Part shown: positions 36,195 to 50,227 of the stretch, in pieces | How the letters are laid out: each line of letters begins with the position of its first letter | How positions within the stretch are numbered: the first letter of the stretch is position 1 | Assembly (NCBI GenBank): GCA_030426355.1 | Contig: JAUHYQ010000002.1 | Span: 434,001-498,000 of the forward strand | Length of the DNA stretch: 64,000 nt | Source: Gammaproteobacteria bacterium | Lineage (GTDB): Bacteria; Pseudomonadota; Gammaproteobacteria; Steroidobacterales; GCA-2729495 | Direction of reading: 5' to 3' | Position numbers and translations under genes: made by a program | The notes under the pieces: generated by a model | Seen by the model: the letters and a program-made list of their open reading frames with translations, nothing else | Databases searched by the model: none | What the model was told of the DNA's origin: nothing

Positions 36195-36387
36195 CTATAA
36201 AATATTGCGATCCCGGATTTATCCTGTGCGAAACAACAGAATTGTAGATAGATTCGGTCTTAACAAACCGGCTTGGTCCATTATGACTTAGACAAAATTG
36301 TGCGCCATATATCGGTGTGGGCTACTGACAATCCGGTGGCTGCCGCGCTGAGAGGCGCCTGCCCGGACGCCAACTTTTTGAAAAGAT

Positions 36388-36430
36388 TGGCGCTCCCTAC
36401 GGGAATCGAACCCGTGTTTCAGCCTTGAGA
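36388..36430 (-). repeat. Left attachment-like site: tRNA 3'-end fragment
   Basis: On the minus strand this reads anticodon loop–variable loop–T arm–acceptor 3' strand ending GCCA: T-stem ACGGG/CCCGT around TTCGATT, acceptor AGGGAGC, discriminator G and CCA, with CTC in the anticodon position (Glu-like). No matching 5' half lies to its right, so it is a fragment and not a functional tRNA. 15 bp (36388–36402) and 25 bp (36406–36430) recur exactly at the right end. Confidence 0.75.
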
Positions 36431-36580
36431 GGGCGTTTTTTGGCCTTCTTCGGACGCCCTCGGAAACTATTAAACTATTGAAAAATAAGAAAACGGTCCA
36501 AATTTGTCCGAGGGGCTCCTGCACGGTATTCTAGAGAAAAATAGAGAAAAACTATTTGGCTCTAAATTACCGAGGCAGCC

Positions 36581-37801
36581 GTGGCACGCATCACCCGCAG
36601 CGCACAACTGGAAAAACGTCAGTCGAGGACACGACTCAAGACTGGCAAAAATCATTGGCGGGCAATTCATGAAGGACTCGCTCTCGGTTACTGGAAGGGC
36701 AAGAAAACATCCTCCTGGCTCGTCAGGGTCCGCAAGGACGATGGTGGCTACGTCAGCAAGAAATTTGCTGTGGCCGATGATCATCAGGATGCCGACGGTC
36801 GAGACGTCCTGAATTACACGCAGGCTCACAAACGTGCACAGATGCTGGAGCCTCAGCTGCGATACCCGGACGTCGCACCCACCGAGCAAGCTGATCCTCT
36901 GGTTAGCGACCTGCTCGATGAGTACCTGACAAAGCACAAGTTGGAATCCGCTTCGTGGCAATCGACCGAGTACGCGATCGAAAAGATGAAAGTAGCGTTC
37001 GCGGGTAAGCGCGTTTCGGAATTGACCACCGCCATGTTGCGTCGCTGGCATCAGGCGCAGGCCAAACCGCGATCAGACTCTGCTGAATCTAAGCGGAAGG
37101 CTCGAGCTACGGCAAACCGCAAACTGACCGTCTTAAAGGCTGCCCTGAACTGGGGCTGGAGCGGTCCGAGCGCAGTTGCGGATTCCTGGCGGGCTGTGAA
37201 GCCGTTCCCGAAGGTCGACGCGCCGCCGGCTGCGCACCTGTCGCTGGAGGAAGTCACACGACTGTTGAACGCCTGTGAGCCGGACTTTCGTGAACTGGTT
37301 GAGGGTACGTTGCTGGTCGGTGGGCGCTACGGCGAAATGAGCGCACTGACAGCGGGTAACTTTAATCAGGAAGCCGGGTCTATTTTGTTACCGACGGGAA
37401 AAACGGGGTTCCGAGAGGTTTGGTTGAGTGCCGAGGGCGTGGCGTTCTTCCAGCGGATCACCGCAGGCAAGAAGCGTGGTGAGCGGATTTTCACTCATTC
37501 GGATGGCTCCGAGTGGCGCCAGGCTCACCAGATACGGCGGATGCGTGAGTCCTGCGAAAGGTCGAGTATTGAGCCGGCGGTGCCGTTTAAGGCGTTGAGA
37601 ACCACCTATGGCGCGCTGCTCGCCATGCAGGGCACAAGCCCGCAGGTGATCCAGCGGCAGCTGGGCCATGCGGATTTGCGGATGACTCTGAAGCACTACG
37701 CACACCTGCTGCCCAACTACGTGGCTGACGAAATTCGGGCGAAGTTGCCGAGTTTTGGGGTATATGCCGACAGCAAGGTCACGTCAATCAAGGTAGCGTA
37801 G
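36581..37801 (+). CDS. Tyrosine-type site-specific integrase
   Basis: 406-aa phage integrase-family recombinase. A SAM-like core-binding domain (about residues 100–200, PLVSDLLDEYLTKHK...) precedes the catalytic domain: Arg in LLVGGRYGEMSALT, Arg in FKALRTTYGALLAM, His in QRQLGHADLRMTLKHYAHL and the nucleophile Tyr in KHYAHL. The His of the usual HxxR motif is replaced by Lys (KALR). The N-terminal 90 residues resemble the arm-binding part of P4-like integrases. It begins 150 nt from the left tRNA-like repeat and points into the element, as expected for the gene that inserts and excises it. Confidence 0.93.
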   Translation: MARITRSAQLEKRQSRTRLKTGKNHWRAIHEGLALGYWKGKKTSSWLVRVRKDDGGYVSKKFAVADDHQDADGRDVLNYTQAHKRAQMLEPQLRYPDVAPTEQADPLVSDLLDEYLTKHKLESASWQSTEYAIEKMKVAFAGKRVSELTTAMLRRWHQAQAKPRSDSAESKRKARATANRKLTVLKAALNWGWSGPSAVADSWRAVKPFPKVDAPPAAHLSLEEVTRLLNACEPDFRELVEGTLLVGGRYGEMSALTAGNFNQEAGSILLPTGKTGFREVWLSAEGVAFFQRITAGKKRGERIFTHSDGSEWRQAHQIRRMRESCERSSIEPAVPFKALRTTYGALLAMQGTSPQVIQRQLGHADLRMTLKHYAHLLPNYVADEIRAKLPSFGVYADSKVTSIKVA

Positions 37802-37892
37802 GTTTCGGAGTTTTCTGAAGGAGGCTATGGAATATCAGCATTGTTGAATGTTGGAATCGCAGTAATCTTTGGTGTAGGCACAAGGATTATTG

Positions 37893-37935
37893 ACACCGTA
37901 CAAAATACCGGTTATACCGTACAAAGTAACGGTAT
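37893..37935. promoter_or_regulatory. Tandem operator sites just before the YfbU-like gene
   Basis: Two copies of an 18-bp sequence (37895–37912 and 37916–37933, 16 of 18 identical) are spaced 21 bp apart, two helical turns. The second is also a palindrome: ATACCGT (37914–37920), 8 nt, ACGGTAT (37929–37935), and ends 2 nt before the ATG of the next gene at 37938. This layout suggests a dimeric regulator that blocks initiation or translation, most simply the RHH-like N-terminus of the protein encoded next. Confidence 0.7.
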
Positions 37936-37937
37936 TT

Positions 37938-38663
37938 ATGAGGTGTATTGTGCAAGCAAAGTCAGAAAGGTTTGAGCTCCGCCTAAATCAGGAGCTGATG
38001 CATCGTCTGGACAACTGGCGTACGGGAACCCTAGATGGGCTGTCGCGAGCTGAAGCTGCGCGCCGGCTGATGGAGTTGGGGTTGTCGGCCAGCAGTTCCA
38101 GTGCGGAAGAGGTTCATTTTCGTCCCGGCGAGTTGCTGATTGTCATGATGCTGCGTGATCTTTACGGCGCACTGAAGGTCAAGGGTGACATTGACCCAGA
38201 CTTCGTCGCCGAGGCAATTTGGGGCGGGCATTACTGGGCGTTCGACTGGCAATACACGGGGCTCTTCCATGATTCGCGTGACAAGACTGAGAACGTCTAT
38301 TTTGTGCTCGACGTGCTGGAAATGTGGGAGGCCATCGAAGAAAGCTATGCGAAGCTGACCGCGGCAGAGAAGAAGGCGGTGGAGGTTGAGGCAGAGCCGT
38401 TTGGCAAGTTCGTCGAATTTTCCGGTTTTGATGGTAACAATGAAGGTGAATATATTGGCATTGCCCGGTTTCTGGTCGAGAAAATGCAGCGGTTTACGCA
38501 TTTTTCTGGTCGGCGTTTCAATTCGCACGCGCCATCGGTTGGCCCGTACCGACAGATGCTTGATTGCTACGGGCCGATGAAAGGCCGCACGGTCGGCAGC
38601 TCATTAAGTAAGGATCAGATTGTGAAACTGCTGCTTGAACAGACGCATCCAGATTACCGGTAG
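37938..38663 (+). CDS. RHH-like / YfbU-like protein
   Basis: 241 aa. The N-terminal stretch KSERFELRLNQELMHRLDNWR...GLSRAEAARRLMELGL resembles a ribbon-helix-helix DNA-binding domain. The rest resembles YfbU-family proteins (EEVHFRPGELLIVMMLRDLYGAL, FDWQYTGLFH, YFVLDVLEMWEAIEESYAKL). YfbU has been linked to stress and cell death in E. coli, but its biochemical role is unknown. I choose the ATG at 37938 directly after the palindromic operator; the frame is open upstream to 37890 through the operator sequence. The nuclease-like gene follows after 39 nt, so the two may be one operon. Confidence 0.75.
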   Translation: MRCIVQAKSERFELRLNQELMHRLDNWRTGTLDGLSRAEAARRLMELGLSASSSSAEEVHFRPGELLIVMMLRDLYGALKVKGDIDPDFVAEAIWGGHYWAFDWQYTGLFHDSRDKTENVYFVLDVLEMWEAIEESYAKLTAAEKKAVEVEAEPFGKFVEFSGFDGNNEGEYIGIARFLVEKMQRFTHFSGRRFNSHAPSVGPYRQMLDCYGPMKGRTVGSSLSKDQIVKLLLEQTHPDYR

Positions 38664-38702
38664 CAGACCGCTGGTTGCGCAGAGGATGTAGGGGAGCAAA
38701 CC

Positions 38703-39863
38703 TTGCTGTTTGAAGAAGTCGAGCGGGTTGACGATGACAAAAAGAGGGCCGGGGAGAGCACCTTCGCTTTTCTGGACAGGTGCTCATGGCCGGAGATCCA
38801 AGCTGTTCGTGAGTTACTGAATGAGCTTGTTTCTGAATACCCGGATGAGGAGCGTAACGAGATGTTAGCCAGACTTCGGTCTGGCGACGACACGCAGTTT
38901 TCTAGCGCGAGTTTTGAGCTAATTCTCTACGTTGTCTTAGTCCGATGCGGTTGCGAGGTTGAGGTGCATCCGGAGCTTGAGAACGGTAGTCCGAAACGCC
39001 CGGACTTTTTGGTGACACCGCCTGGCGAAGATCCTTTCTATCTGGAATGCGCCTGCGTGTCCGAGCGAGGCTATGCTGATGCAGCTGTGCAATCGCGGCG
39101 CGATCATCTGTATGAGGTTTTAAACAAGAGTCCTCATGACAACTTTGCATTGTTGGTAATGGAGGAGGAGGGTCCCTCAGGCCAGCCCAGTGCAAAAGAT
39201 TTAGTGGCTGATCTGCATGGGTGGCTCGATCAGTTAGACGTTGATGAGGTGCTCGCTGCTTACGAGGAAACAGGGGGTGACGCGTTGCCCGAGCATGGCT
39301 ACGAGGCAAAAGGTTATCGCGTTCGATTCGTGGCTTATCCCAAGAAGGTGAACAGCAGGGGTGAGCCAAGTGACCTTATTGTGTCCTATTTAGGTCAGGG
39401 GGGATGGGTAAATAGATGGATGCCGGCTCGTGACAAAATCATGGGCAAGGGTGGCGCCTACGGTGATTTGGATAAGCCTTTGTTAATCGCGATCAACTAC
39501 AACGTATTCAGTGCTGATGAGCAAGACGACTTACAAGCACTATACGGACAGCTCGCCGTCGTTTTCAGCATCGGTGAGAGCGCGAAGAGCGCGCGCCAGA
39601 CGCGAAAACGAAACGGCGCATGGACAGGCCGTAGCGGCCCACGCTACACAAGAATTGGCGGGGTTTGGTTCTTCAGTGACCTGAACGCCTACCGAATAGG
39701 AGACTGCCGCAACTGCTTGTACCTGAACCCTTGGGCGGCCCGGCCATTACCGGAGTTCGTCAAGCAATTTCCTACAGTTGAACCGGAAGGAGATAATTTG
39801 GTGCCCCATGAGGGCATTCACATCAGTGCGCTAATTGCCAAACACGGTAAAGATGAGGGCTAG
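38703..39863 (+). CDS. Hypothetical protein with PD-(D/E)XK nuclease-like core
   Basis: 386 aa, family not recognised. About residues 70–120 read SSASFELILYVVLVRCGCEVEVHP...RPDFLVTPPGEDPFYLECACVS: a helix with Glu, then PDFLV, then YLECA, the spacing of a PD-(D/E)XK restriction-like fold in which the usual Lys is replaced by Cys. The rest is acidic with an Arg-rich patch near residue 300 (SARQTRKRNGAW). A TTG at 38703 is taken as start because GGGGAG lies 6 nt upstream and no nearby ATG has one. Probably co-transcribed with the YfbU-like gene; a DNA-targeting defence role is inference. Confidence 0.65.
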   Translation: MLFEEVERVDDDKKRAGESTFAFLDRCSWPEIQAVRELLNELVSEYPDEERNEMLARLRSGDDTQFSSASFELILYVVLVRCGCEVEVHPELENGSPKRPDFLVTPPGEDPFYLECACVSERGYADAAVQSRRDHLYEVLNKSPHDNFALLVMEEEGPSGQPSAKDLVADLHGWLDQLDVDEVLAAYEETGGDALPEHGYEAKGYRVRFVAYPKKVNSRGEPSDLIVSYLGQGGWVNRWMPARDKIMGKGGAYGDLDKPLLIAINYNVFSADEQDDLQALYGQLAVVFSIGESAKSARQTRKRNGAWTGRSGPRYTRIGGVWFFSDLNAYRIGDCRNCLYLNPWAARPLPEFVKQFPTVEPEGDNLVPHEGIHISALIAKHGKDEG

Positions 39864-39889
39864 GGTTTTTCATTCAATCGAGTTCGCGA

Positions 39890-40480
39890 TTACACAATTT
39901 TAAGCAGCGCGAGTATGTCCAAAGCTGCCGCGTGGGTGTAGCCCTCATGACGGTCGCATAAAGTATCAAAGGTTTTCCAGTGCATACCCTTCGGCTTACC
40001 TCCTTCTGCATCAAATATTCCCGGATCCCAGCCGAGCCGCCTTCTAATTTTTGCGGCCTGACGTTCGGCACGGTCACTCGCCGACTCACGCTGACTTTGG
40101 TACGCCAAGTCATAGCAACGCCGGCAGGCGTAGATGGAGTCCGCATAAAGAATAGCTACCCGGTGACCACAATCCATGTTGGGGCAAATGAACCAGGGCC
40201 GCGTGCCTCCAAAGTGGCAGGGTGTTCGGTCGATAGAAACTGTGTAGTCGATGATGCCTGCTGAGCGATCAGCGAAGTTTTTCGGGCGACAGATTTGTAC
40301 GCAGTTGCGGTGTACTTTGACGTCCGCGTATCCTGTGTTTGTCGGGAATTGGTGCCAGAGGTTCTGGAACCGGATGCCCGGAATAAGCAGCCCTTCGCGA
40401 TGCCAGACCCGAATATCGATCATCTGCAGCTCTTCCGTCGTTGCACGCTGGCTTTGCCTGCCGCTGCCGAAACCGCCCAT
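39890..40480 (-). CDS. Hypothetical zinc-ribbon-like protein of integrative elements
   Basis: 196 aa. Starts MGGFGSGRQSQRATTEELQMIDIR, an N-terminus I associate with uncharacterised proteins in integrative elements. A likely Zn ribbon is seen as RPWFICPNMDCGHRVAILY ... YACRRCYDLAYQSQRES (two CxxC-like pairs), followed by a basic helix. GGAG lies 7 nt before the ATG at 40480. Last gene of the leftward replication operon. No enzymatic motif seen. Confidence 0.75.
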   Translation of the reverse strand: MGGFGSGRQSQRATTEELQMIDIRVWHREGLLIPGIRFQNLWHQFPTNTGYADVKVHRNCVQICRPKNFADRSAGIIDYTVSIDRTPCHFGGTRPWFICPNMDCGHRVAILYADSIYACRRCYDLAYQSQRESASDRAERQAAKIRRRLGWDPGIFDAEGGKPKGMHWKTFDTLCDRHEGYTHAAALDILALLKIV

Positions 40481-40506
40481 TTTTGTCTCCTGTTTTACCG
40501 AAATGA

Positions 40507-40959
40507 TTAGGGAAATTTACGATAACCCGGTGGTCGCGGCACCGGTCGACCTGCGGCTCGATTCCAGCACCAGGGGCAACCATGCACGTGCGCCGCAACA
40601 CGCAACCACACAGGCCCACAGCCCTCACAGACTGCTATTGCCGTAAAAGCTTCCGGAACGATGCCCTGATCGATTTGGCGGTTTTCTGCGACGACTTGAG
40701 CGAGTGCAGCGAGCGTCCGATCGTCAAACCGTCCCGCGATCCAGTCGTCGACATCCTCGGGCGATAGCGCCTGATGCAATTGCAAGGGTGTCAGTTCGAC
40801 GATCTGGCAGGCGTCTGTAAGCGATCGCGTGAAATTTCGATCTTGCAGCGCAGTATTCGCACAATCCGCAGAAACATCGTGCTTGGTCGTATTCTGCGAA
40901 TAATGCGGATTCTGCGCTTGCGTGTCGGTCGCCCAGCCGAGGATGTCGCGCCAGCTCAT
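40507..40959 (-). CDS. Hypothetical accessory protein of the replication module
   Basis: 150 aa, family not recognised. Starts MSWRDILGWATDTQ; the C-terminal third has cysteines in AVCEGCGPVWLRV...CPWCWNRAAG, a probable Zn-binding end. The middle codes through an inverted repeat (40848–40917). The ATG at 40959 overlaps the DUF3987 stop (ATGA) and has GGAGG upstream; GTG at 40965 is the alternative. Small genes with such CxxC ends often follow DUF3987 genes in these elements. Confidence 0.7.
   Translation of the reverse strand: MSWRDILGWATDTQAQNPHYSQNTTKHDVSADCANTALQDRNFTRSLTDACQIVELTPLQLHQALSPEDVDDWIAGRFDDRTLAALAQVVAENRQIDQGIVPEAFTAIAVCEGCGPVWLRVAAHVHGCPWCWNRAAGRPVPRPPGYRKFP
40848..40917. 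repeat. Imperfect inverted repeat, iteron-like
   Basis: Arms 40848–40870 and 40895–40917 match in inverted orientation at 18 of 23 positions around a 24-nt loop. Each arm is made of alternating 9-bp steps of the type nATnCGCAn. A nearly exact third copy lies at 43741–43763. It falls inside the 150-aa gene. Confidence 0.6.
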
Positions 40960-42473
40960 CGCCACGCCTCCGCAAACTCGGGTCTAACCCGGACCAAGGG
41001 CGAGGGCGGACGACCGGGCCCCTTGGTTACTGGTTCTGCGATCAGGATGTAGCCGCGTTCCTCAAGCAGATCGAGTATCTCCCGCAGCTCTTTAACGCGC
41101 GTAAAACGACCTTTTAGGGCGTTAAATGCTTGGCGGACCGTAAAGTGGGTCAGCCGGTTTCTGTATATCCAGCCCCATACGTGACCGGCAGCGGCGAGTT
41201 TTTCGTCTGCCCCCATGAGCTCCATGGCGGCGATACTGTGATGCGTGAGAACCGCCATGATGTCCAAAGCTGCTTTCATGGTGTCGGTGCTGATTTGGTA
41301 TTGCCACGGTTTATCGTGCGCGTGCTTGATCGCATGCAGGACCCCGGCGATTCGAGCAGCAGCACCCGGTGCCTTTCCGCCCCAGTCTCGAAATTGTTCC
41401 AAGCTTCCCTGACTCCGCATCTTGGCCTCGATGGCCGCGGCAAATGCGTTCCACTCTGCGTGTGCTTCAGGCTCCAGTTTCAGGTCCCAAAAACTGGGGC
41501 TCGATTCGTCGTTTTGCGCTTTGGGCCAATTCAGCATGGCGTTGATGCCGGAGTGGTAGGCATGCACGACGCTTACGGGCATTGGTGTCGTTTCAAGGGT
41601 GCGGTGTCCGATCGGAGATGGCGGCATTAGGCACAGCAGTCGCGCCAGCAAACCACGCCCTCTGAACCCGGGCGTCGATGCCAGCCCGTTCAGGACGTCG
41701 GGCTGAGGGCTTAGGCCAATGGTCAGGCGAGGACAGTGCAAGAACAGCGGCGGTCTGGAGCCCCGGTCGACTCGTTCCGAATCCCCGCTGTGTGACTTGA
41801 GCACGAGGTCCAAGTTGAGATTGCCGTTCGTGTAACGGCCTTTGAGCAGGTCGAAGACGCCGCCCTCGGATGAAAGCCAGGCAAGTTCCTCGGATTGTGC
41901 CGCCATGATGATACCGAGTCGTTCGGGTGTGCAATCTGAAGTCCAGAGCTGCGGCGGGATCGGGATGACGGGGAGGTCCGCTTCAAGTCGCGTGGCATCT
42001 TCTGCCAATTCTGCGCCGTGCTGACGGTCTTTGGCGCGAGCTGCTTTTGCACGCAGGTGTTTGATGCGTGTCTCCGTATTTTTGCGCTCACTGCTAATGC
42101 GCTTGATCTCAGATTCCATCAGTTCGGTCAGCTCTTGTTCCCAATTGATGAGCGGTTTCACAGCTGCGGATTGCACGGCGCTCTTGCGGTTGCCTGACTC
42201 AAGAGCCACCATGAGCCAGAGGTTGCAGTGTTCATAGTGATCGCCGTAGACATGCACCCTGAGGCGTCTAGCTGCGACCGCGCTGCAGGTTGCGAGCACC
42301 ATGCCGATGGCCAGCTCGGGTGGCGTCTCGGTTGCGGCGGCAAGCGCGCGCGCAAAATCGCCAGCCCAGCTCGGCAACACGACGGGATTTAGCCGCGGTA
42401 GCGTGGGGTGGTCCAGCGGTACCAGTTCAGGCCAGATGTTAACGGCATCGATCTTTTGTGCTGGCTCGTTCAT
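40956..42473 (-). CDS. DUF3987-domain protein (helicase/primase-associated)
   Basis: 505 aa. DUF3987 proteins are common beside TOPRIM primases in phages and integrative elements. Family-like text: FARALAAATETPPELAIGMVLATCSAVAARRLRVHV, NLWLMVALESGNRKSAVQSAAVKPLI (a P-loop-like ESGNRKS), PQLWTSDCTPERLGIIMAAQSEELAWLSSEGGVFDLLKGRY, and a C-terminal winged-helix-like region AFNALKGRFTRVKELREILDLLEERGYI. The ATG at 42473 overlaps the primase stop (ATGA). The likely job is ATP-driven unwinding or loading for element replication. Confidence 0.85.
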   Translation of the reverse strand: MNEPAQKIDAVNIWPELVPLDHPTLPRLNPVVLPSWAGDFARALAAATETPPELAIGMVLATCSAVAARRLRVHVYGDHYEHCNLWLMVALESGNRKSAVQSAAVKPLINWEQELTELMESEIKRISSERKNTETRIKHLRAKAARAKDRQHGAELAEDATRLEADLPVIPIPPQLWTSDCTPERLGIIMAAQSEELAWLSSEGGVFDLLKGRYTNGNLNLDLVLKSHSGDSERVDRGSRPPLFLHCPRLTIGLSPQPDVLNGLASTPGFRGRGLLARLLCLMPPSPIGHRTLETTPMPVSVVHAYHSGINAMLNWPKAQNDESSPSFWDLKLEPEAHAEWNAFAAAIEAKMRSQGSLEQFRDWGGKAPGAAARIAGVLHAIKHAHDKPWQYQISTDTMKAALDIMAVLTHHSIAAMELMGADEKLAAAGHVWGWIYRNRLTHFTVRQAFNALKGRFTRVKELREILDLLEERGYILIAEPVTKGPGRPPSPLVRVRPEFAEAWR

Positions 42474-43402
42474 GTCTGCGAGTCCAATCCGGCGAGCCAC
42501 ATCTCAAGGTCGTTGAAGTCGGTCAAATGCGCCGGCGCGCTATTCGGCCAGTCGGGAAATTGCACCTCAGCGCCGATGGCTTGTGCCGCCGCGATGGCTT
42601 TTGTGCGCCCTGGATTTCCCTCAGTCTGTCGGTCGTCATCGCCGCAGATGGTGAACTGAGCCGCTGGCCAACGCAGAAATCCTGCTGTTGCTGCAGCGAC
42701 CAGATTGCCGCAATCAATGGCGGCCAGAATCGCAGCACCAGGATACAATTCGGCGAGGGTGCAGGCGGTCGCCCAGCCTTCGCAGATCAGTACTCGTTCA
42801 GGGTCCATTTCGGGGTCGATTGGCGGGCCACCCAACTCATAAGGTAGGGTCAGCTCGACCTTCACCGGGACGACGCAGGATGCTTTTCTTCCGCCACTGA
42901 GCAGAGTTTTGTGGCCGTCTGCGTCGATAAACTGAAGGCTGGTCAAGGCTCCTGTCAGGTCGCGGATGGGCAGAACGATGCGATTGTCGTACATCCGGGC
43001 GGCGTAGGGCGTAATTCCTTTGCGCGCAATGTAGGGAAAGTCAGGGTCAATGGGTTCGGCAGCGCTCCACATCCAGCTGGCACGTCTTGCTGCCTCTGCA
43101 TGGCGTTCTTTGGTGCGTGCTTCGCGCAGCTCGCGAGCAGCCTGAATGACGCGCCGATCCTGCGCAGCATCGACATCAAAATGTTGACTGGCGTTGTTCA
43201 ACCAGAGTACCGACAGGTCGGATGACCAGTCGCCGAAGCAGCCTCCGCGCCCGTCTTCAAACAGCTTGCACCAACCCGCATTGTTGCCAGATCCTTTGCC
43301 CCGGCCGGGGAAGCGATGGAAATGACCCGGTTCGATGCTCGCCGGCGGCTCCATGCCGTGACGGCGAATTTCTTCCTGAAAGAGAGAGATAGCATTGCTC
43401 AT
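42470..43402 (-). CDS. TOPRIM-domain primase-like protein
   Basis: 310 aa. N-terminal zinc-free region with HFHRFPGRGKGSGNNAGWCKLFEDGRGGCFGDW, typical of phage primase/helicase-associated N-termini. A TOPRIM core follows: RVLICEGWATACTLAEL (EG..TA, catalytic Glu) and FTICGDDDRQTEGNPGRTKA (DDD). It would synthesise primers for the element. The ATG at 43402 overlaps the alpA stop (ATGA); the upstream open frame is spurious. Confidence 0.88.
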   Translation of the reverse strand: MSNAISLFQEEIRRHGMEPPASIEPGHFHRFPGRGKGSGNNAGWCKLFEDGRGGCFGDWSSDLSVLWLNNASQHFDVDAAQDRRVIQAARELREARTKERHAEAARRASWMWSAAEPIDPDFPYIARKGITPYAARMYDNRIVLPIRDLTGALTSLQFIDADGHKTLLSGGRKASCVVPVKVELTLPYELGGPPIDPEMDPERVLICEGWATACTLAELYPGAAILAAIDCGNLVAAATAGFLRWPAAQFTICGDDDRQTEGNPGRTKAIAAAQAIGAEVQFPDWPNSAPAHLTDFNDLEMWLAGLDSQT

Positions 43403-43617
43403 GATTCCTCTCCCTTGACTGGCTTGCGGCTGACCCAGCCCATTTCGGCCTTGTTCTGTAACCACCTGTCGATGTCGGGTTCGAGCCAGCCGACAGCGCG
43501 CATGCCCAGCGAGACGGGCTCGGGAAATGTTCCTTCACTGATTTGTTGGTAAATGGTGCTTCGTGAGAGGCCGGTGCGAGAAATGACATCCGGCAGTCTT
43601 AGTATGGAATTGACCAT
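43399..43617 (-). CDS. AlpA-family excisionase/transcriptional regulator
   Basis: 72-aa MerR-like winged-helix protein: ILRLPDVISRTGLSRSTIYQQISEGTFPEPVSLGMRAVGWLEPDIDRWLQNK is a classic AlpA/P4-Vis sequence. Such proteins regulate the integrase or act as excisionase. The ATG at 43617 has GGGG 8 nt upstream; an ATG 30 nt further up is in frame. First gene of the leftward alpA–primase–DUF3987 operon. Confidence 0.92.
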   Translation of the reverse strand: MVNSILRLPDVISRTGLSRSTIYQQISEGTFPEPVSLGMRAVGWLEPDIDRWLQNKAEMGWVSRKPVKGEES

Positions 43618-43740
43618 GTTGGTGTCCCCTTGGGGCTTGTTGAACATGGTTTCCTATTATTGTCATCCGATGGTGCTTCGGAAGTGGCACAAGAAACAGA
43701 GGAACCGGGTGCTTTGGTGTCACCCCGTAAATCTTAATAA

Positions 43741-43763
43741 TGCGGATAGTGCGAATACTGCGC
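43741..43763 (-). repeat. Distal copy of the iteron-like 23-bp repeat
   Basis: Read on the minus strand, this sequence matches 40848–40870 at 22 of 23 positions. It lies in the short gap between alpA and the 248-aa gene, so the two near-identical copies bracket the whole replication operon in inverted orientation. Confidence 0.6.
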
Positions 43764-44510
43764 TCAGGCTGCCAAATCTCTCGTCAGGCGTTGGATTGAG
43801 CGTCTGTGATTTTCCGAATCATACTTGCGTTCTTTTGCAAAATGATCCGGGAAGAGGGCTCGGTCAAGGGCCATCAGCCAGCGGCGTTTCGGTTCACCAA
43901 ATTCATGTAGGATTCCCGAGGTCATACTGCGAATGAAATAGCGACGGATTGCCTCGTTGTCACCCGTTTTACTGGTGAACGAGAACGGTTCATATACGGT
44001 GGCGGAATCATCGATGGCGGCAAGCAAATGCTCGATCGAGACGCTGCTGCGGGTAAGCAGCGTTTGCGCTATCCGTCGCGCTGGACCTTGCTCAGCTTTT
44101 TCGAGATCTGCGGCGTCGGCCGTGCAACTTTCCAGCAATATTCGTCGCGCCGAGCCCGTGTAGGTCAGCAGGTTGGCCGGGCGCTTATCCAGCAGCTTCT
44201 GGGCCTCTCTCAGCGCAAGAGCAAGGTCACTGAGCCATTTTTCCGACTCTTTGATTGAGGCATAACTCATCCCTTGTACGGGTATGCTGTCGAGCATCAG
44301 GCTGCAAAGCCAGTGTTGGCCAAATTCTGGTGTATCTGGATGCATTTCGGTCACCTCGGTCCAGACTTTTTCCATTTCCTCGGACTGACTAAGCAATGCG
44401 AGTTTCAGGTACTGGACCTCCAAGTCTTCCGGCTCGGCATCTTGGAACACGTCAGCGGCCCACTCTTTGACTTCTGGGTGAATCCAGAGTGGAAACTCAG
44501 TCATTGTCAT
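43764..44510 (-). CDS. Hypothetical protein (248 aa) of the mobile element
   Basis: 248 aa, family not recognised. Starts MTMTEFPLWIHPEVKEWAADVFQ; helical and acidic, no signal or membrane segment, one possible start 6 nt in. Motif search by eye finds no catalytic signature. It lies between alpA and the divergent 266-aa gene; the 96-nt gap between the two divergent genes must hold promoters for both. It could be an accessory or a defence gene; no function is proposed. Confidence 0.7.
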   Translation of the reverse strand: MTMTEFPLWIHPEVKEWAADVFQDAEPEDLEVQYLKLALLSQSEEMEKVWTEVTEMHPDTPEFGQHWLCSLMLDSIPVQGMSYASIKESEKWLSDLALALREAQKLLDKRPANLLTYTGSARRILLESCTADAADLEKAEQGPARRIAQTLLTRSSVSIEHLLAAIDDSATVYEPFSFTSKTGDNEAIRRYFIRSMTSGILHEFGEPKRRWLMALDRALFPDHFAKERKYDSENHRRSIQRLTRDLAA

Positions 44511-44606
44511 AGGTACATCTCACGTTGAAGGACTTACCCAGACTTTATTGGAAAATCCGGTCTAATCCAGTACGTTGTCGGAATAGTAGTAGCAACTTGG
44601 GGAATC

Positions 44607-45407
44607 ATGAACGACGTAAGGGTTTTGGAGCTGCTGTCGTCGGTTGGGGCGTCGCTTGAGGCGGGGCAGGAGCCTGCCGATACAGATCTGCATGATTTAG
44701 AGTCCGCCGATGCGATCAACCGCAAAGGAACGTCGTTCTGGGATGCGGTGTGTGCAGAGCGCTCAGCAGAGCAGATTGCGCTGTTGATCAAGGGCCTGAC
44801 CTACGTTGAAAAGCATTTCAAATGGGCTGGCGGATCGGCGGCCGGGACTATCTGGTTGTTTGCTCATCTGAAAGATAAAGCCGCTGACAGGGCGCTTGTC
44901 GATGCCGTGTGCGCCTGGGTGATAGCGAATACGGCCAACCATTACAGTCCTTTCGGCACCTTTGTGTCGTTGGGAGCAAAAAATTATTCCGAATACGAGC
45001 GGCGCAGTTTTGTCCGAAAGAGAGAAATTCGGCTATACGCAGCGCAAGATGCTGAATGGGAGCATGTTGCGGCCGAAAAGCGCGAGGCCAGAGCGATGCT
45101 TTCAAGCGCAGACTGCGAGAAACGCGGCTCGCCGGAGCGCGCCGAGCTCATTGAGTGTTTGAACGCATTGACGCCCAGAGAGCAGTTGCTTCAATTGGCA
45201 GGGGATGACGAGCACGGCCCGAAGCACTACCCGACCCGGGTGGCGGGTGCCGCTCGGCAAGATGTTATCGACGGTCTGGACGAGTCCGTTCGGTTGCAAC
45301 TCGCTGACAAACTGAAGGGCAAGCAGCGCGGACCATGGGGCAGTTTCAAGAAGCGGTTACTGAAAACGCTGGATGAGCCGTGGAACATGAGTCCGTGGGG
45401 TGTCTGA
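44607..45407 (+). CDS. Hypothetical protein (266 aa) of the mobile element
   Basis: 266 aa, family not recognised. The ATG is preceded by TTGGGGAATC (GGGG 4 nt upstream). The protein starts MNDVRVLELLSSVGASLEAG and is rich in Ala/Glu helices, with a basic C-terminus (KLKGKQRGPWGSFKKRLLKTLDEPW). No transmembrane segment. It is divergent from the 248-aa gene and followed by 836 nt without a clear gene. Confidence 0.7.
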   Translation: MNDVRVLELLSSVGASLEAGQEPADTDLHDLESADAINRKGTSFWDAVCAERSAEQIALLIKGLTYVEKHFKWAGGSAAGTIWLFAHLKDKAADRALVDAVCAWVIANTANHYSPFGTFVSLGAKNYSEYERRSFVRKREIRLYAAQDAEWEHVAAEKREARAMLSSADCEKRGSPERAELIECLNALTPREQLLQLAGDDEHGPKHYPTRVAGAARQDVIDGLDESVRLQLADKLKGKQRGPWGSFKKRLLKTLDEPWNMSPWGV

Positions 45408-46243
45408 CAGATTCAGTGAATGGCGCCGGCGTGCGCAGCAATATAGCGATTACTAAGTTCAAATTGATAGCTGAATTGTTAATAGCTGGCAAAGTAGCAG
45501 CAACTAAATGCTGAGGTGCGCAAGAATTGCGATGCATGCATGTGACGAACTTGTGAGCTCGGTTGAGCGTGAGCGCAAAAGCCTTACGCCTGGCAAAAAA
45601 GTCCGGCGTTGAGATCACCGGGGGCCAAGCGCAAGGCCGATTAGTAGTCTTACGAAAATTGAGCGCAGTATCAAGGCTAAGGTTCAGCGAGAGTGCAGTA
45701 TGGCCGATTTTCAGAGCTGTCGCTCCATAGCATTTCCGGGCTAGGGTTACTAAATGTGGTTTTGCGGGATGGAGTGAATGCAAGATGGTAATGCAGAAAT
45801 GAATGCTCAAAAGGAGGGTAGCTCGCAAGCAAGTAATTGTTCGGGGTGGGGCGCGCCAGTGCTGGCTGTTGAGCGAGGCAAGGCCCACTCCGAGCGTATC
45901 AGAATCAGGTGGCGATGGAGGTTTCCCGGCCCGGCAAGGCAACAAACAACCGGCATATCGAATCGTGTAATCGTAGTTTTCGGCATGAACACTGGAGCGC
46001 GCAATGTTTTCTAGTCTGGCTGATGCCAAAGATATGAGGGTTAGGGTGGCAAGAAAATTGGGGCAGGGCGCTCGAGTTGCCGCGTTTGGATTATGGCTCG
46101 ATCGCAATACTGGCAGTCTCAAGACCCGTCTGAAGTAGTATGGGCGTTACGTAAGATTCCTCGATAGCAGGCCTAATTTGTGATTTGTTCGTTACAGATA
46201 CGATTGCTATATTTCCGTCCATGATTCCAATACCCGGAGCGTT
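45408..46243. other. 836-nt stretch without a convincing gene
   Basis: No frame here has a ribosome binding site together with a protein-like composition. The minus strand is open for 777 nt (46122 to 45346) but the deduced product is very poor in Gly, Asp and Glu, and overlaps the 266-aa gene. The plus strand is purine-rich and shows loosely repeated short phrases (TTGAGCG or TTCAGCG followed by GAGxGCA near 45564, 45660, 45683 and 45868). It may hold a structured RNA, a decayed gene or regulatory DNA for the downstream metallopeptidase gene. Confidence 0.5.
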
Positions 46244-47440
46244 ATGCCTGCGGTAAATCCACAAATATTGACTTGGGCTCGAGAGACTGCCGGCTTGGAC
46301 GTGCGTGAAGCTGCAGGAAGGCTCCAGCTAAAAGACTCTAGGCGATCGACCGCAGCCGATAAGTTGTTGGCATATGAGTCTGGAAAAGTGTTATCCCGTT
46401 CATTGCTTTTAAGGATGGCCAAGCTGTACCGGCGGCCCCTGTTGTCCTTTTATTTGCCGAATCCCCCCAAAAAAGCTGACCGAGGCGAGGACTTCAGGAC
46501 TCTCGAAGCAGCAGGAGATCCCGGTCAAGATGCAATCGTCGATGCGCTTATACGAAACATCAGAGCGCGGCAGAATATCGTCAAGACGGCAATCCTGTCT
46601 GAAGGAGATACCGATCCACTCCCATTTGTAGGCTCCTTCCAAGCAGAGGGAGGCAGTCATGAGCTGGCCCGGTATATCCAGCAAGCGTTCGAAATTGACC
46701 TGGATGCCTATAGGAGGGCTTCGTCGCAAGAAGAAGCATTTGGCTACCTGAGGTCTGCTGTTGAGCGCAAGGGCGTGTTCGCTTTGTTGGCAGGCAATTT
46801 AGGTAGCTACCACACCAATCTGGAAGTCGAGGTGTTTCGCGGATTTGCCTTGGCCGACGATATTGCCCCATTTGTTGTTATAAATGATCAAGATGCCAAA
46901 GCGGCGTGGTCGTTCACACTTTTACATGAAGTGGCGCACTTGTGCCTTGGAGCGTCGGGTATCAGCGGCGGTTCATCTGAGCGACGAATTGAGAGACTTT
47001 GCGATGAAGCTGCATCACTTGTTCTGGTGTCAGAAGAAGAGCTTTATGCTGCCTTCCCTGATGCGCTTGATATAGATTGGGAGGAGCAAGTAGAGCTGAT
47101 TGATAGGTTTGCGGCTGATAAGAAAATCAGCTCTCGTTTTGTAGCATTTAGACTGCTCAGTAGCGGAATGCTCACGGCTGAGCAGTTTTCGGGCCTTAGC
47201 GCGTATTTCCTTAATCGGTGGAGGGCAACGAGAGAGCGCCAGCGTGACAAGGCGCGAAGTAGGGATGGCGGCCCATCCTACTATGTGATGAGACGACACA
47301 AGTTGGGCGCGGCGCTTTTGGATACTGCTAAACGGATGCTCTCATCTGGCGAGCTTTCAACCTCAGATGTTGGTCAAGTGCTGGGTGTCCGGCCTCTAAA
47401 CGTCGGAAATGTCCTGGCGAATGGGGGCCGTCGCGGCTAG
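46244..47440 (+). CDS. XRE-type HTH / ImmA-IrrE metallopeptidase
   Basis: 398-aa protein in two parts. Residues 1–75 form an HTH-like region (MPAVNPQILTWARETAGLDVREAAGRL). The second part is an ImmA/IrrE peptidase: FTLLHEVAHLCLG contains the HExxH zinc site, followed by a downstream Glu (ERLCDEAASLVLV). Such fusions cleave or bind regulators and are common as the antitoxin/regulator half of conflict modules. The DUF4411 gene follows after 6 nt. The ATG at 46244 has a weak SD (GGAGCGTT). Confidence 0.9.
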   Translation: MPAVNPQILTWARETAGLDVREAAGRLQLKDSRRSTAADKLLAYESGKVLSRSLLLRMAKLYRRPLLSFYLPNPPKKADRGEDFRTLEAAGDPGQDAIVDALIRNIRARQNIVKTAILSEGDTDPLPFVGSFQAEGGSHELARYIQQAFEIDLDAYRRASSQEEAFGYLRSAVERKGVFALLAGNLGSYHTNLEVEVFRGFALADDIAPFVVINDQDAKAAWSFTLLHEVAHLCLGASGISGGSSERRIERLCDEAASLVLVSEEELYAAFPDALDIDWEEQVELIDRFAADKKISSRFVAFRLLSSGMLTAEQFSGLSAYFLNRWRATRERQRDKARSRDGGPSYYVMRRHKLGAALLDTAKRMLSSGELSTSDVGQVLGVRPLNVGNVLANGGRRG

Positions 47441-47446
47441 CTCCCA

Positions 47447-47977
47447 ATGGTCTACTTACTCGACGCCAATACTCTCATTGATGCAAAACGAGATTACTTT
47501 CAGTTTAGTCGAGTCCCTGAATTCTGGGACTGGCTTGTCCACCAGGGGCAGCAGGGCAACATTAAGATCCCCAGAGAAATCTATGATGAGTTTGAAGGCG
47601 TGAAAAAGCCCGATGGGGGCCGTGATGAGTTATCAGAATGGGCAGCCCGAGCTGACGTAAAAGCGGCGCTATTGCTTGATGAGGAACCCGATCCGGGCCT
47701 AGTTACGAGGGTCACGTTGGAGGGGTATTGCGAAAACCCTACAGATCAAGAATTAGAGGAAATGGGTCGCGACCCGTTCCTGATTTCTTATGCACTGCTA
47801 GATCCCGACAACCGTACGATTGTCTCTACTGAAGTTAGCAAGCCTAAGAGGCAGCGTGCAAATCGGCAGGTGCCAAACGTATGCAGCGATTTCGGCATCC
47901 GGTGCATCAATAATTTTGACCTTATAGTGGAGCTGGACTTCAGTACGAATTGGCAAGACAAATTGGACAAGGACTGA
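47447..47977 (+). CDS. DUF4411 family PIN-like protein (probable toxin)
   Basis: 176 aa. MVYLLDANTLIDAKRDYF is the PIN-like N-terminus with the first catalytic Asp (LDANTLID), IPREIYDEFEG follows, and DPFLISYALLDPDNRTIVSTEVS carries the later acidic residues. DUF4411 proteins occur typically beside XRE–ImmA/IrrE genes and are considered RNase-like toxins of toxin–antitoxin-like pairs. Position 6 nt after the metallopeptidase supports that pairing here. Confidence 0.88.
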   Translation: MVYLLDANTLIDAKRDYFQFSRVPEFWDWLVHQGQQGNIKIPREIYDEFEGVKKPDGGRDELSEWAARADVKAALLLDEEPDPGLVTRVTLEGYCENPTDQELEEMGRDPFLISYALLDPDNRTIVSTEVSKPKRQRANRQVPNVCSDFGIRCINNFDLIVELDFSTNWQDKLDKD

Positions 47978-48018
47978 GCCAATTGGAAGGTAGCGCCTGC
48001 AACTACATTTGATATCCT

Positions 48019-48564
48019 ATGAACCGGTTGCTTACTGAGCGAGAAAAAAGATACAGACAGGCTATACGCGAGAAGCTGGCGAATGCCAAGTTAGTTCTTG
48101 ATTCGGCAACGGTTGATGATGAAGGTTCGCCGGCCGAATGGTATAGCGCGCTCAATGAGCTGAAGCAGACCTTAGGGAATATCAACAACGACATCAGCTT
48201 TATAGTTACTCTGTTGGCAAAGCTATATTTGAAAAAGAGGTTTGGTTTGTTCGATTTTGATGCTGCTGCGAAGCCACAGGGGGCTCCTGGTCTAGATATC
48301 GATGAAATTCTGCCGGATTCACGGCGCGTGGTGTGCGAGATCAAGACGACTACGCCATACATCCGTTCAGATTTCGGGGCGCAACAAAAAACGAGCTTCG
48401 ATAAGGATTTCCGTAAATTGGCTGATGCTGAAGCAGGCCTCAAGTTCATGTTTGTCACAGAGGATGCAACGTTCAAGATATTGTGCCGACCACGCTACGC
48501 TGCGAAGTTGTCTGGAGTAGCGGTCGTGCAGCTAATCTCCGAGGAGGAGCACGCCATCCCGTGA
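48019..48564 (+). CDS. Hypothetical protein with PD-(D/E)XK nuclease-like motif
   Basis: 181 aa, family not recognised. The C-terminal half reads GLDIDEILPDSRRVVCEIKTTTPYIRS: an Asp, a short beta strand and EIK, which is the D...ExK arrangement of restriction-endonuclease-like folds. A helical N-terminal part (MNRLLTEREKRYRQAIREKLANAK) precedes. It follows the DUF4411 gene by 41 nt on the same strand and may belong to the same transcription unit. Nuclease function is inferred. Confidence 0.68.
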   Translation: MNRLLTEREKRYRQAIREKLANAKLVLDSATVDDEGSPAEWYSALNELKQTLGNINNDISFIVTLLAKLYLKKRFGLFDFDAAAKPQGAPGLDIDEILPDSRRVVCEIKTTTPYIRSDFGAQQKTSFDKDFRKLADAEAGLKFMFVTEDATFKILCRPRYAAKLSGVAVVQLISEEEHAIP

Positions 48565-48597
48565 GTTCATTCACGGTTAAAGCATATTCGTAGTTTC

Positions 48598-48731
48598 CAC
48601 GCTGTGGCCTCGATCCACCACCTGCTTAACGGCTTCAACCTTGAACTCTTCCGGGTATCTCTTCCTGCTCATAGCCACCTCTCCTCATGCCATTTTGTAT
48701 GACTGGAAGGTGTCTAGTAAAGTGGGGGCTA
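48598..48731 (-). pseudogene. Remnant of an IS3-family element (OrfA N-terminus and terminal repeat)
   Basis: From an ATG at 48672 the minus strand codes MSRKRYPEEFKVEAVKQVV followed by DRGHSV, the start of an IS3-group OrfA, then diverges and stops at 48577. Upstream, 48701–48731 reads as the left terminal repeat of such an element (…CCCCCACTTTACTAGACACCTTCC on the minus strand). The remainder of the insertion sequence is absent. Confidence 0.8.
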
Positions 48732-48747
48732 TTCAGTCTGCAGTTCA

Positions 48748-49767
48748 TTAGGGTAGATGCTCGTCGGGCGTAATCCAAAGATGACTCTTTTTTTCAAGGT
48801 AGCGTTCTAGGTATTCATACCGTTCAGTGAGTTTGTCGTTGTTCTGTTGGCGGTATTGAGCCAAGGAATCTGCCACAAATACTTTGGCCTTCGATAGGAG
48901 AATCGCGCTGCCTTCTATAGCCGCCCCATCTAAAATTAACTCTCGAACTCCTGTGCCCAAGAAATCAACAAAATTGATGCCGTCGTCATCCTGAGCAATT
49001 AGTTTTAGGCAGGCCAAAGCTGACTCAGCGTTAACTTTGTTTATATCCGTTGTCTGAGGAAGCTTCGTTGTCATTACAATATAACTGTAAATTTCTTCGC
49101 CAATGACTACTCGTGGAAAGTTTGCTGTTTTTGATTCTAAAACGTATGCGCGAGCTAACACTGGGCCGTAAAAGTCGCCGTCAAATGTTCGGTATCCAAT
49201 TCCCAGTTCAATACCGCCGCGTATTGGATTGCCGCGGGCTAAGCAATTCAGCGAGGCAGTCGCCGTCGCGCCAATTAGACCGTATATCCCACGGATTGGC
49301 GCACGGGCCTCGGCCGTTTCTTTGAAGGAAACACTTGCCAGCACAAAGTCGGAGAACTGGTCCGTTTCAATAGGTTGGCTTACTAGGGTTTTAAAAAGCG
49401 CTTGCTTGTCTGGCGGCAAGGAAGCGATTCGTTCATTGTAATTGGGGCGAGTCGCATAGGTGCTGAGGAAGTTCCTAAAGCTACTTCTGAGAGCAAGCAC
49501 GGCTCCGTATGTTGCTTTAATATCTGAAATAAGTTGTTCACGCTCAACTTCTGAGTCCTCTGAGGGCAGATTCGTCATGCGACACAACTTCTCTTTCTGA
49601 CCCAGAATATCTACAAAAGCAACTGCAAAATAACCTATTCCCAATTCATCGTCTGTGTCGGTCGACATAATTGAAAGTAACCGTTTTCCAAGAGAAACAA
49701 GCAATAGTGATATAAAAGCAGCAACAGCAATGGACAGCCACAGCCATTCGCCAAGAAGATCTATCAT
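48748..49767 (-). CDS. Membrane-anchored class III nucleotidyl cyclase-like protein
   Basis: 339 aa. One transmembrane helix near the N-terminus (residues 8–27, WLWLSIAVAAFISLLLVSLG) is followed by a cytosolic domain. FAVAFVDILGQKEKL (Asp at about residue 53) parallels the FxDIxGF metal-binding strand of class III cyclases. Later RGGIELGIGYRTFDGDFYGPVLARAYVLES matches the G-I-x-x-G...Y-G-x-x-x-x-x-A-x-x-L-E pattern of the same fold. Such divergent cyclases include the Pycsar antiphage enzymes, but the effector gene expected next to one is not obvious. I set the start at 49767 (GGAAG 5 nt upstream); the open frame back to 50091 reads into the repeat and att region and is not protein-like. Confidence 0.65.
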   Translation of the reverse strand: MIDLLGEWLWLSIAVAAFISLLLVSLGKRLLSIMSTDTDDELGIGYFAVAFVDILGQKEKLCRMTNLPSEDSEVEREQLISDIKATYGAVLALRSSFRNFLSTYATRPNYNERIASLPPDKQALFKTLVSQPIETDQFSDFVLASVSFKETAEARAPIRGIYGLIGATATASLNCLARGNPIRGGIELGIGYRTFDGDFYGPVLARAYVLESKTANFPRVVIGEEIYSYIVMTTKLPQTTDINKVNAESALACLKLIAQDDDGINFVDFLGTGVRELILDGAAIEGSAILLSKAKVFVADSLAQYRQQNNDKLTERYEYLERYLEKKSHLWITPDEHLP

Positions 49768-49945
49768 ATTACTTCCGGTGATTCTGTTTATTCGGTACAG
49801 CTTTAATGCATTTTTTAGTCCTATGCGAGCTTTTTCGGGCGAACATTGGCGGAAGCCTTTCTGCGACCCGGCAGGAGAAAAAGCGGCTGTATGTCCGGGA
49901 GAGAGCACACTGTTCGGCAGTTGCCGTGGCGTTGCCGTTATGAGG

Positions 49946-49975
49946 GACTTGACGGGACTTGACGGGACTTGACGG
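49946..49975. repeat. Three perfect 10-bp tandem repeats
   Basis: GACTTGACGG occurs three times in a row, upstream of the cyclase-like gene and ahead of the right att-like site. The 260 nt between the gene start (49767) and the att-like site show no other feature that I can name. Confidence 0.85.
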
Positions 49976-50024
49976 GGTATTTGCCGGGCGAATTTACGTA
50001 AGCAATTGATAAGTAAAGGTAGCG

Positions 50025-50118
50025 TGGCGCTCCCTACGGAAGCCGCTCTCGGCCATCCATGGCCTCTGCGGCACTTGTGCATCCTGCACATCGTCGAACC
50101 CGTGTTTCAGCCTTGAGA
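50025..50118 (-). repeat. Right attachment-like site, interrupted
   Basis: 15 bp (50025–50039) and 25 bp (50094–50118) are identical to the two halves of the left site, in the same order and orientation. In the left copy 3 bp separate them; here 54 bp do. Both ends together make the direct repeat expected after integration into a tRNA 3' end, but no intact tRNA is found to its right in the next kilobase. Confidence 0.7.
50040..50093. repeat. 54-bp palindromic insertion with two GGAT-type hairpins
   Basis: Contains GGCCATCCATGGCC (50051–50064) enclosed by GCCGC (50043–50047) and GCGGC (50068–50072), and TGTGCATCCTGCACA (50076–50090). Both hairpins are tipped by the same TCC/GGA step. This looks like a small REP-like or transposon-derived palindromic element that landed in the att sequence. 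Confidence 0.6.
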
Positions 50119-50227
50119 AGTCGAGGAAAGACTGGCGCACGACTCTACCAAGGTTCTCTCGTTCAGAGCTTGACCGCAATACTCGCGTTATTGCTTTTGG
50201 GGGGGGCTTTGGCCATGATGAGAACCC

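Follow-up and report, generated by a model that had tools for sequence, protein, structure and literature searches.

A gene for a predicted DNA-binding protein with tandem operators at its promoter, followed closely by a gene with nuclease-like motifs and lying beside an integrase, raises the question of whether the two form a toxin–antitoxin (TA) or similar conflict unit or are independent genes that came together on a mobile element. Such a pair occupies positions 37893 to 39863 of the window, by which we mean the whole stretch of 64,000 nucleotides (nt) analyzed (positions 434,001 to 498,000 of contig JAUHYQ010000002.1, gammaproteobacterial assembly GCA_030426355.1), and an earlier note, made from the letters of the window, had suggested that it may be an undescribed two-gene conflict system. 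On balance we lean to a different reading, in which a solo PD-T7-5-like defense nuclease has been captured behind an autoregulated RHH-YfbU gene (RHH, ribbon-helix-helix) on a mobile element. The argument draws on the following features.

37890-37918, forward strand: possible sigma-70 promoter TTGACA-17-TATACC, overlapping the operators (by-eye reading)
37895-37912, forward strand: operator repeat 1, ACCGTACAAAATACCGGT, with the core common to RHH-YfbU genes
37916-37933, forward strand: operator repeat 2, ACCGTACAAAGTAACGGT, with the same common core
37950-38663, forward strand: YfbU-type gene with GTG start, encoding the RHH-YfbU protein of 237 residues (PF03887, phrog_6084, homologue alignment)
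38690-38696, forward strand: Shine-Dalgarno sequence AGGGGAG of the second gene (read from sequence)
38703-39863, forward strand: second gene with TTG start, encoding a putative PD-T7-5-like, PD-(D/E)XK-type protein of 386 residues
38889-39059, forward strand: first half of the core (residues 63-119), a helix with E72, then H89 of HPEL, PD101 and E115 (alignments, AlphaFold secondary structure)
39060-39416, forward strand: residues 120-238, a family-specific stretch that separates the core halves and carries a conserved WLDSLDPD motif
39417-39563, forward strand: residues 239-287, probably the second core half, with a helix holding R243 and K249, a strand LLIAIN, then ALYG

Pairing of the two genes and the RHH-YfbU operator

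Co-occurrence of the two families across genomes, which had been set beforehand as the refuting test for a two-gene system, failed in both directions. Hidden Markov models were run against six-frame translations of flanks of up to 7 kb around nuclease-family genes and up to 5 kb around YfbU genes, shorter at contig ends. No YfbU gene was found in 21 other nuclease-family loci (0/20 if the near-identical loci L003 and L004 are counted once), and no nuclease-family gene in 23 other YfbU loci (0/12 and a further 0/11). The records opened were 7 of the 23 plasmid records with a nuclease-family relative, 8 of the 174 YfbU plasmid records (145 of the 174 being Enterococcus, one of which was opened) and 3 of the 4 phage records with YfbU. 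The two-gene conflict system was rejected on this failure of pairing both ways, beside which stand the occurrence of the operator without a nuclease gene and the cassette form of the second gene, both described below.

The layout of the pair is largely as the earlier note described it. The genes are 39 nt apart (38664-38702), with no terminator listed by the terminator scan within that gap, and the second has a good Shine-Dalgarno sequence, AGGGGAG, 6 nt before a TTG start with which the first residue of its homologues coincides. GTG 37950 has GAGG 6 nt upstream and is most likely the true start of the YfbU-like gene, because the homologues from Xanthomonas citri and Rhizobium align from there; ATG 37938 was rejected as the start on the same ground. 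The tandem repeats that had been read as operators before this gene are present, but their reported distance of 2 nt from an ATG is not, since they end 4 nt before ATG 37938 and 16 nt before GTG 37950.

The assignment of the first protein to the YfbU family holds (PF03887, E 1.9e-19, 70.8 bits against a cut-off of 25; phrog_6084, E 5.4e-33). Its RHH head covers approximately residues 1-45 and the YfbU domain the rest of the 237 residues. The Pfam scan of the window protein gave no RHH match, and the RHH-like N-terminus that had been proposed is borne out through homologues, the N-terminus of the aligned Xanthomonas protein matching RHH_1 (E 6.3e-5, above the cut-off) and the head of the window protein itself matching phrog_4738 (E 0.0011). 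A single-sequence AlphaFold model of the protein, with a predicted local distance difference test score (pLDDT) of 40, was discarded. RHH-YfbU is rare in the class, the Xanthomonas homologue matching only the window's own genome among 274 at an E threshold of 1e-8, and pattern scans of viral contigs for YfbU gave 11 loci with a three-sequence alignment and none with the window protein alone as the query. RHH-YfbU proteins are poorly understood; a literature search for YfbU with ribbon-helix-helix led to a single paper, on endoribonuclease toxins, and none of the publications found to mention YfbU names it in the title or abstract.

The two 18-bp repeats upstream of the YfbU gene, spaced 21 bp apart, are identical at 16 of 18 positions. 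Within the repeat stretch, 20-mers agree at up to 17/20 positions. Among 2000 random 66-nt segments drawn from the window one did as well, and among 2000 shuffles of the repeat stretch itself none did (best 15). A spaced pattern read from the repeats finds, with up to two mismatches, only these two sites in the whole window. The core is conserved beyond the window: all ten RHH-YfbU genes (the window gene, L012, L013 and L058-L064) have CGTAC/GTACG 38-55 nt ahead of the start, and none of 13 YfbU genes without RHH has it in that interval, while the strict 6-mer CCGTAC/GTACGG is present in 8/10 versus 0/13. Random 31-nt windows contain the strict 6-mer in 43 of 3000 cases and the loose core in 106 of 3000. 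The strict form was derived from the window and two homologues, which are three of the ten genes; it is present in five of the seven found later, and the core was loosened to CGTAC/GTACG after these had been inspected. The gene sets include near copies (L058 with L059, L017 with L057) and one doubtful control, L068, whose match begins at residue 29 and whose start was not located. L014 has a single operator core, at -25. Because the operator tracks RHH-YfbU genes, and is also present at RHH-YfbU loci with no nuclease-family gene nearby, the operators belong to RHH-YfbU and not to the pair. The CCGTAC-type sites are, as judged from these upstream regions, RHH-YfbU's own predicted operator, and its binding to them is likewise a prediction. 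The DNA-binding head and promoter operators expected of a type II TA system are thus present in the window, but tied to YfbU alone.

The second gene and its relation to PD-T7-5

The 386-residue protein has no match in Pfam or NCBIfam at E 1, and its best PHROGs match is phrog_8571, of unknown function (E 8.9e-5, residues 30-128). The nuclease-like core PDFLV...YLECA that had been noticed in it is present at residues 100-117, and E72, D101 and E115 are invariant in 14/14 aligned sequences covering these positions, as are K249 and Y253 in 15/15. Left out of the protein alignments were the frame-disrupted or truncated L002, L006, L009, L025, L027 and L028 and the near copy L004; the truncated L024 and the partial L030 were kept in one alignment (A3). 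The AlphaFold model, built with 11 sequences (pLDDT 81, predicted template modeling score 0.67), contains in order a helix at 63-81, strands at 85-88, 102-105 and 112-119, a helix at 239-251 and a strand at 260-266, giving a helix-strand-strand-strand order around the acidic residues as suits PD-(D/E)XK. Structure prediction had been proposed as a check on this protein, and its outcome is divided: the motifs and the model speak for the PD-(D/E)XK fold, the structure libraries give middling results, and the fold is supported but not proven.

PD-T7-5 is a single-gene anti-phage system that reportedly received its name when Vassallo et al. carried out a functional selection in E. coli in 2022. 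The name does not appear in the main text of the selection paper (PMC9519451); a review table classes PD-T7-5 as a PD(D/E)XK protein (PMC10952713), and another paper reports only a low-scoring RmuC-like prediction for it (PMC10270631). As a proxy for the original E. coli protein we used six profile matches from 185 genomes of the class, one of which, L045, is a close, full-length match (E 7.8e-109), the other five lying between E 1.7e-32 and 2.6e-8. The PADLOC model for PD-T7-5 finds the Pseudomonas aeruginosa relative of the window protein at E 1.3e-8 and the Acinetobacter relative at E 1e-4, and has no match in 14 control genomes. Local profile-profile comparison (hhalign) of the window family with the PD-T7-5 matches gave a probability of 95.3% (E 2.3e-8, 51 core columns), with 0.1% for a reversed alignment and 1.8% for an unrelated YfbU alignment as controls; the forced global mode, the calibration of which is unchecked, gave 97.8%. 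Homology of the core to PD-T7-5 is well supported by these profiles, that of the remainder modestly so, and within our reading as a whole we somewhat favor regarding the 386-residue protein as a distant, divergent PD-T7-5 relative in a little-described family. The likely defense-type role that had been given to the second gene gains support from the core homology and from some defense neighbors, an anti-phage effect itself being what we would expect of such a protein. At L048 (1336-3340), the gene after a PD-T7-5 profile match resembles SIR2 on inspection by eye.

Relatives of the nuclease family were found in 23 plasmid records and at 13 loci in one scan of a species-genome collection, and they include Gallionella, Stutzerimonas, Massilia, Marinobacter and actinobacteria. 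The phage records hold no relative of the 386-residue protein at E 0.1, pattern-based scans of viral contigs found none, and a DNA search of E. coli with one Acinetobacter relative was negative within its sensitivity. Frame-disrupted or truncated copies account for 7/21 other loci (L006, L025, L027, L028, L009, L024 and L002), for which sequencing errors are possible.

In three genomes the nuclease-family gene has the anatomy of a single-gene integron cassette, and in one more the cassette gene is disrupted, a call that rests on attC-like sites. Among L020, L021 and L022, DNA similarity starts 57-84 nt upstream of the gene, at a GCGTTACGC-type junction, and extends to about 66 nt past the stop codon, where it ends within a site bounded by GCGTAAC and GTTA; L021 has a second copy of this site. 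L027, in which the gene is frame-disrupted, has the same junction and, by eye, its own such site, with three further full or partial copies. The attC-like sites, full or partial, at two of these loci are as follows.

L021, 1866-1939: attC-like site
L021, 2784-2841: attC-like site
L027, 4522-4558: attC-like site
L027, 6049-6115: attC-like site
L027, 8155-8232: attC-like site
L027, 10285-10353: attC-like site

Their arrangement around the nuclease-family genes suggests integron cassette arrays in L021 and L027. Folding z values of the attC sites (-1.5, -1.5, -0.1 and -2.3) are suggestive at most, the best fold of L022 differing from the expected hairpin. According to a review, integron cassettes typically carry one open reading frame, and about a tenth of those in one Vibrio integron conferred phage defense (PMC12409362). 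It can be argued that the nuclease-family gene needs no dedicated partner, because single-gene integron cassettes of it exist.

At some other loci the gene has neighbors with defense assignments. On an Acinetobacter plasmid (L005) a relative begins 3 nt after a run of cyclase, HORMA, TRIP13 and NucC genes identified with PADLOC, directly after NucC, and on another (L009) members of these four clusters precede a truncated copy, the final one ending 1 nt ahead of the matching start. A truncated relative at L051 overlaps by 4 nt a 954-codon frame whose last 472 residues, the part scanned, correspond to a type IIG restriction enzyme. Near L019, the first 495 residues of a 1712-residue protein match candidate PDC-M54A (E 1.3e-11), the whole protein giving no match at E 0.001. 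Genes for OloA-like (E 4.4e-6) and PIN proteins lie next to L023 on the opposite strand, and at L003 a HEPN protein is encoded several kb from the nuclease-family gene. Two conserved genes, of about 237 and 197 residues, come after the nuclease-family gene in P. aeruginosa and Stutzerimonas (L003 8259-9333, L019 8275-9587, L025 8227-9589); for those of P. aeruginosa, neither Pfam nor PADLOC gave a convincing match.

Proposed mechanism and its rivals

The homology of the core, the conserved residues, the conservation of the operator, the lack of pairing at the loci examined, the cassette form and some defense neighbors at other loci are computed results. The mechanism that we infer for this locus, from catalysis, target and anti-phage effect to co-transcription and repression, would be as follows. 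Two independent genes would have been joined on a mobile element integrated at tRNA-Glu. RHH-YfbU would repress its own promoter via the CCGTAC-type operators, and transcription of the 386-residue gene would probably begin at that YfbU promoter; the repressor would therefore keep the nuclease scarce. The nuclease itself would be a stand-alone defense protein in which a longer family-specific segment interrupts the PD-(D/E)XK-type core. It would most likely cleave nucleic acid during phage infection, protecting or killing the cell, and it would need no antitoxin.

A number of results weigh against this proposal. The PADLOC PD-T7-5 model matches the window protein weakly (E 0.008) and has no match in the window's genome at E 0.001, and hhalign against L045 alone gives a probability of 5.5% (E 0.007). 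The regions after the core score just 38%, 35% and 9%, so that homology to PD-T7-5 over the full length is unproven. Foldseek, run with the model of the 386-residue protein, found nothing in the PDB or among viral structures at E 0.001. VIA-align places the model against nucleases (XisH, Bax1, SfsA, BstEII, VRR-NUC, Hjc and others) at Z 4-7, a range the tool calls common; its top rows are acetyl-CoA carboxylase domains at Z 7.2-7.7, above the nucleases, which we take as a common arrangement. The family is rare, with a partial match in 1/295 other genomes of the order and none in 368 other genomes drawn from the class, and at most family loci no recognized defense neighbor was found among the chosen neighbors scanned. 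The TTGACA-17-TATACC promoter is missing from the list of the promoter scan, the rule of which requires T at position 6. Finally, the lysine of the ExK motif is absent, residue 117 being A, V, I, L, T or R in the 14 covering sequences.

Among the alternatives, we regard as a tentative possibility, itself rather unlikely, that RHH-YfbU is the active stress or death protein and the 386-residue gene is hitchhiking cargo with no functional link to it. The functional data found on YfbU come from E. coli, in which yfbU is required for mazEF-mediated death after DNA damage and a yfbU deletion behaves like a mazEF deletion (PMC2646832), and plasmids and viral contigs carry RHH-YfbU with no nuclease-family gene. 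No direct counter-evidence bears on this alternative, which fits most of what we propose, the difference being that the YfbU promoter would not matter for the nuclease. It is unlikely, in our estimate, that the second protein is a catalytically dead sensor or a DNA-binding member of the fold. The replaced ExK lysine is what favors this, but E72, D101 and E115 are invariant and are accompanied by an invariant lysine in the following helix, an arrangement shared with the six PD-T7-5 profile matches, which keep the same acids and lysine bar one E for D; by position in the alignments, K249 may replace the missing lysine.

We consider it quite unlikely that the RHH-YfbU repressor senses an infection-linked stress, such as DNA damage, via its YfbU domain and releases the solo anti-phage nuclease only then; if this were true, RHH-YfbU would serve cargo genes in general as a plug-in promoter gated by stress. 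A true two-gene TA or conflict module, with RHH-YfbU as antitoxin and autorepressor, the nuclease as toxin and other such pairs unsampled, has the gene order, the spacing and the operator of a TA operon and the partial opening of the records in its favor, but we hold it to be very improbable given the lack of pairing in the 21 and 23 loci, a nuclease-family gene that is solitary in integron cassettes and elsewhere follows CBASS or type IIG genes (CBASS, cyclic oligonucleotide-based anti-phage signaling system), an operator that is present where no such gene follows, and a protein of 386 residues, which is large for a TA toxin.

The capture of a solo PD-T7-5-like nuclease behind RHH-YfbU, which we prefer, would point to a divergent PD-T7-5-like subfamily whose middle segment is longer, which occurs on plasmids, as integron cassettes and after CBASS genes, and which the PADLOC model barely detects. 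RHH-YfbU proteins gain a directly testable operator in the CCGTAC-type sites some 40-55 nt before the start. The locus also advises caution, as TA-like gene order beside an integrase can come from chance capture.

The mobile element and comparison with known systems

The mobile-element setting proposed for the pair is supported by a tyrosine integrase and by attachment repeats at tRNA-Glu.

36374-36434, no strand assigned: attachment-site repeat with the 3' part of tRNA-Glu (CTC)
36581-37801, forward strand: tyrosine integrase (PF00589, E 3e-14; phrog_1, E 3.6e-46)
50094-50118, no strand assigned: third copy (25 bp) of the attachment core, which may mark the right end of the element that carries the integrase

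The first repeat is 98% identical over 61 bases to a copy 35.3 kb away, outside the window (G000:C5:505688-505748), where ARAGORN finds an intact tRNA-Glu; Rfam gave no match over 36300-50200. The three copies of the attachment core suggest a tandem of two integrated elements, of which the first would be about 13.7 kb long, and from the repeats there may be one element or two. The stretch up to 50.1 kb also encodes DUF3987, Toprim and DUF4411 genes. Just past the pair, at 39890-40480, lies a gene for a protein that begins MGGFGSGR and has cysteine pairs and no Pfam match. At 46244-47977 an M78 (ImmA/IrrE-like) protein, weakly RmrA-like by PADLOC, precedes the DUF4411 protein, and the two may form a TA-like pair at the opposite end of this first element. 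The cargo slot beside the integrase that the earlier note had envisaged was dropped as a conserved feature, since the five genomes with integrase relatives (33-37% identical) lack a comparable layout and share at most one further element gene each.

Three known systems bear comparison with the locus. In type III CBASS (cyclase, HORMA, TRIP13, NucC), the L005 relative is the next gene after NucC, and it looks like an add-on rather than a core CBASS part; no cyclase or other CBASS gene is present among the 14 window proteins scanned with PADLOC. With E. coli YfbU (PDB 4lr3 and 1wpb), the window protein shares the YfbU domain, the solved chains (164 and 172 residues) matching it at E ~1e-7 over residues 116-211 of the ATG-started query, and it differs in its N-terminal RHH head and its operator.

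With the PD-T7-5 matches, the window family has in common the order E-(D/E)-E-(A/C), both being without the ExK lysine, and then a basic residue (R; in the window family K in two and L in one) that is followed by the invariant lysine. A weaker common stretch, R...K...PL(L/V)IA(I/V)N...AL(Y/F)G, reaches a probability of 38% alone. The two families differ in the distance between the core halves, E115 to R243 in the window protein being 128 residues and E94 to R129 in L045 being 35, which leaves about 90 extra residues in the window protein. The window family is further set apart by the invariant histidine of HPEL and by the WLDSLDPD motif in its longer middle segment.

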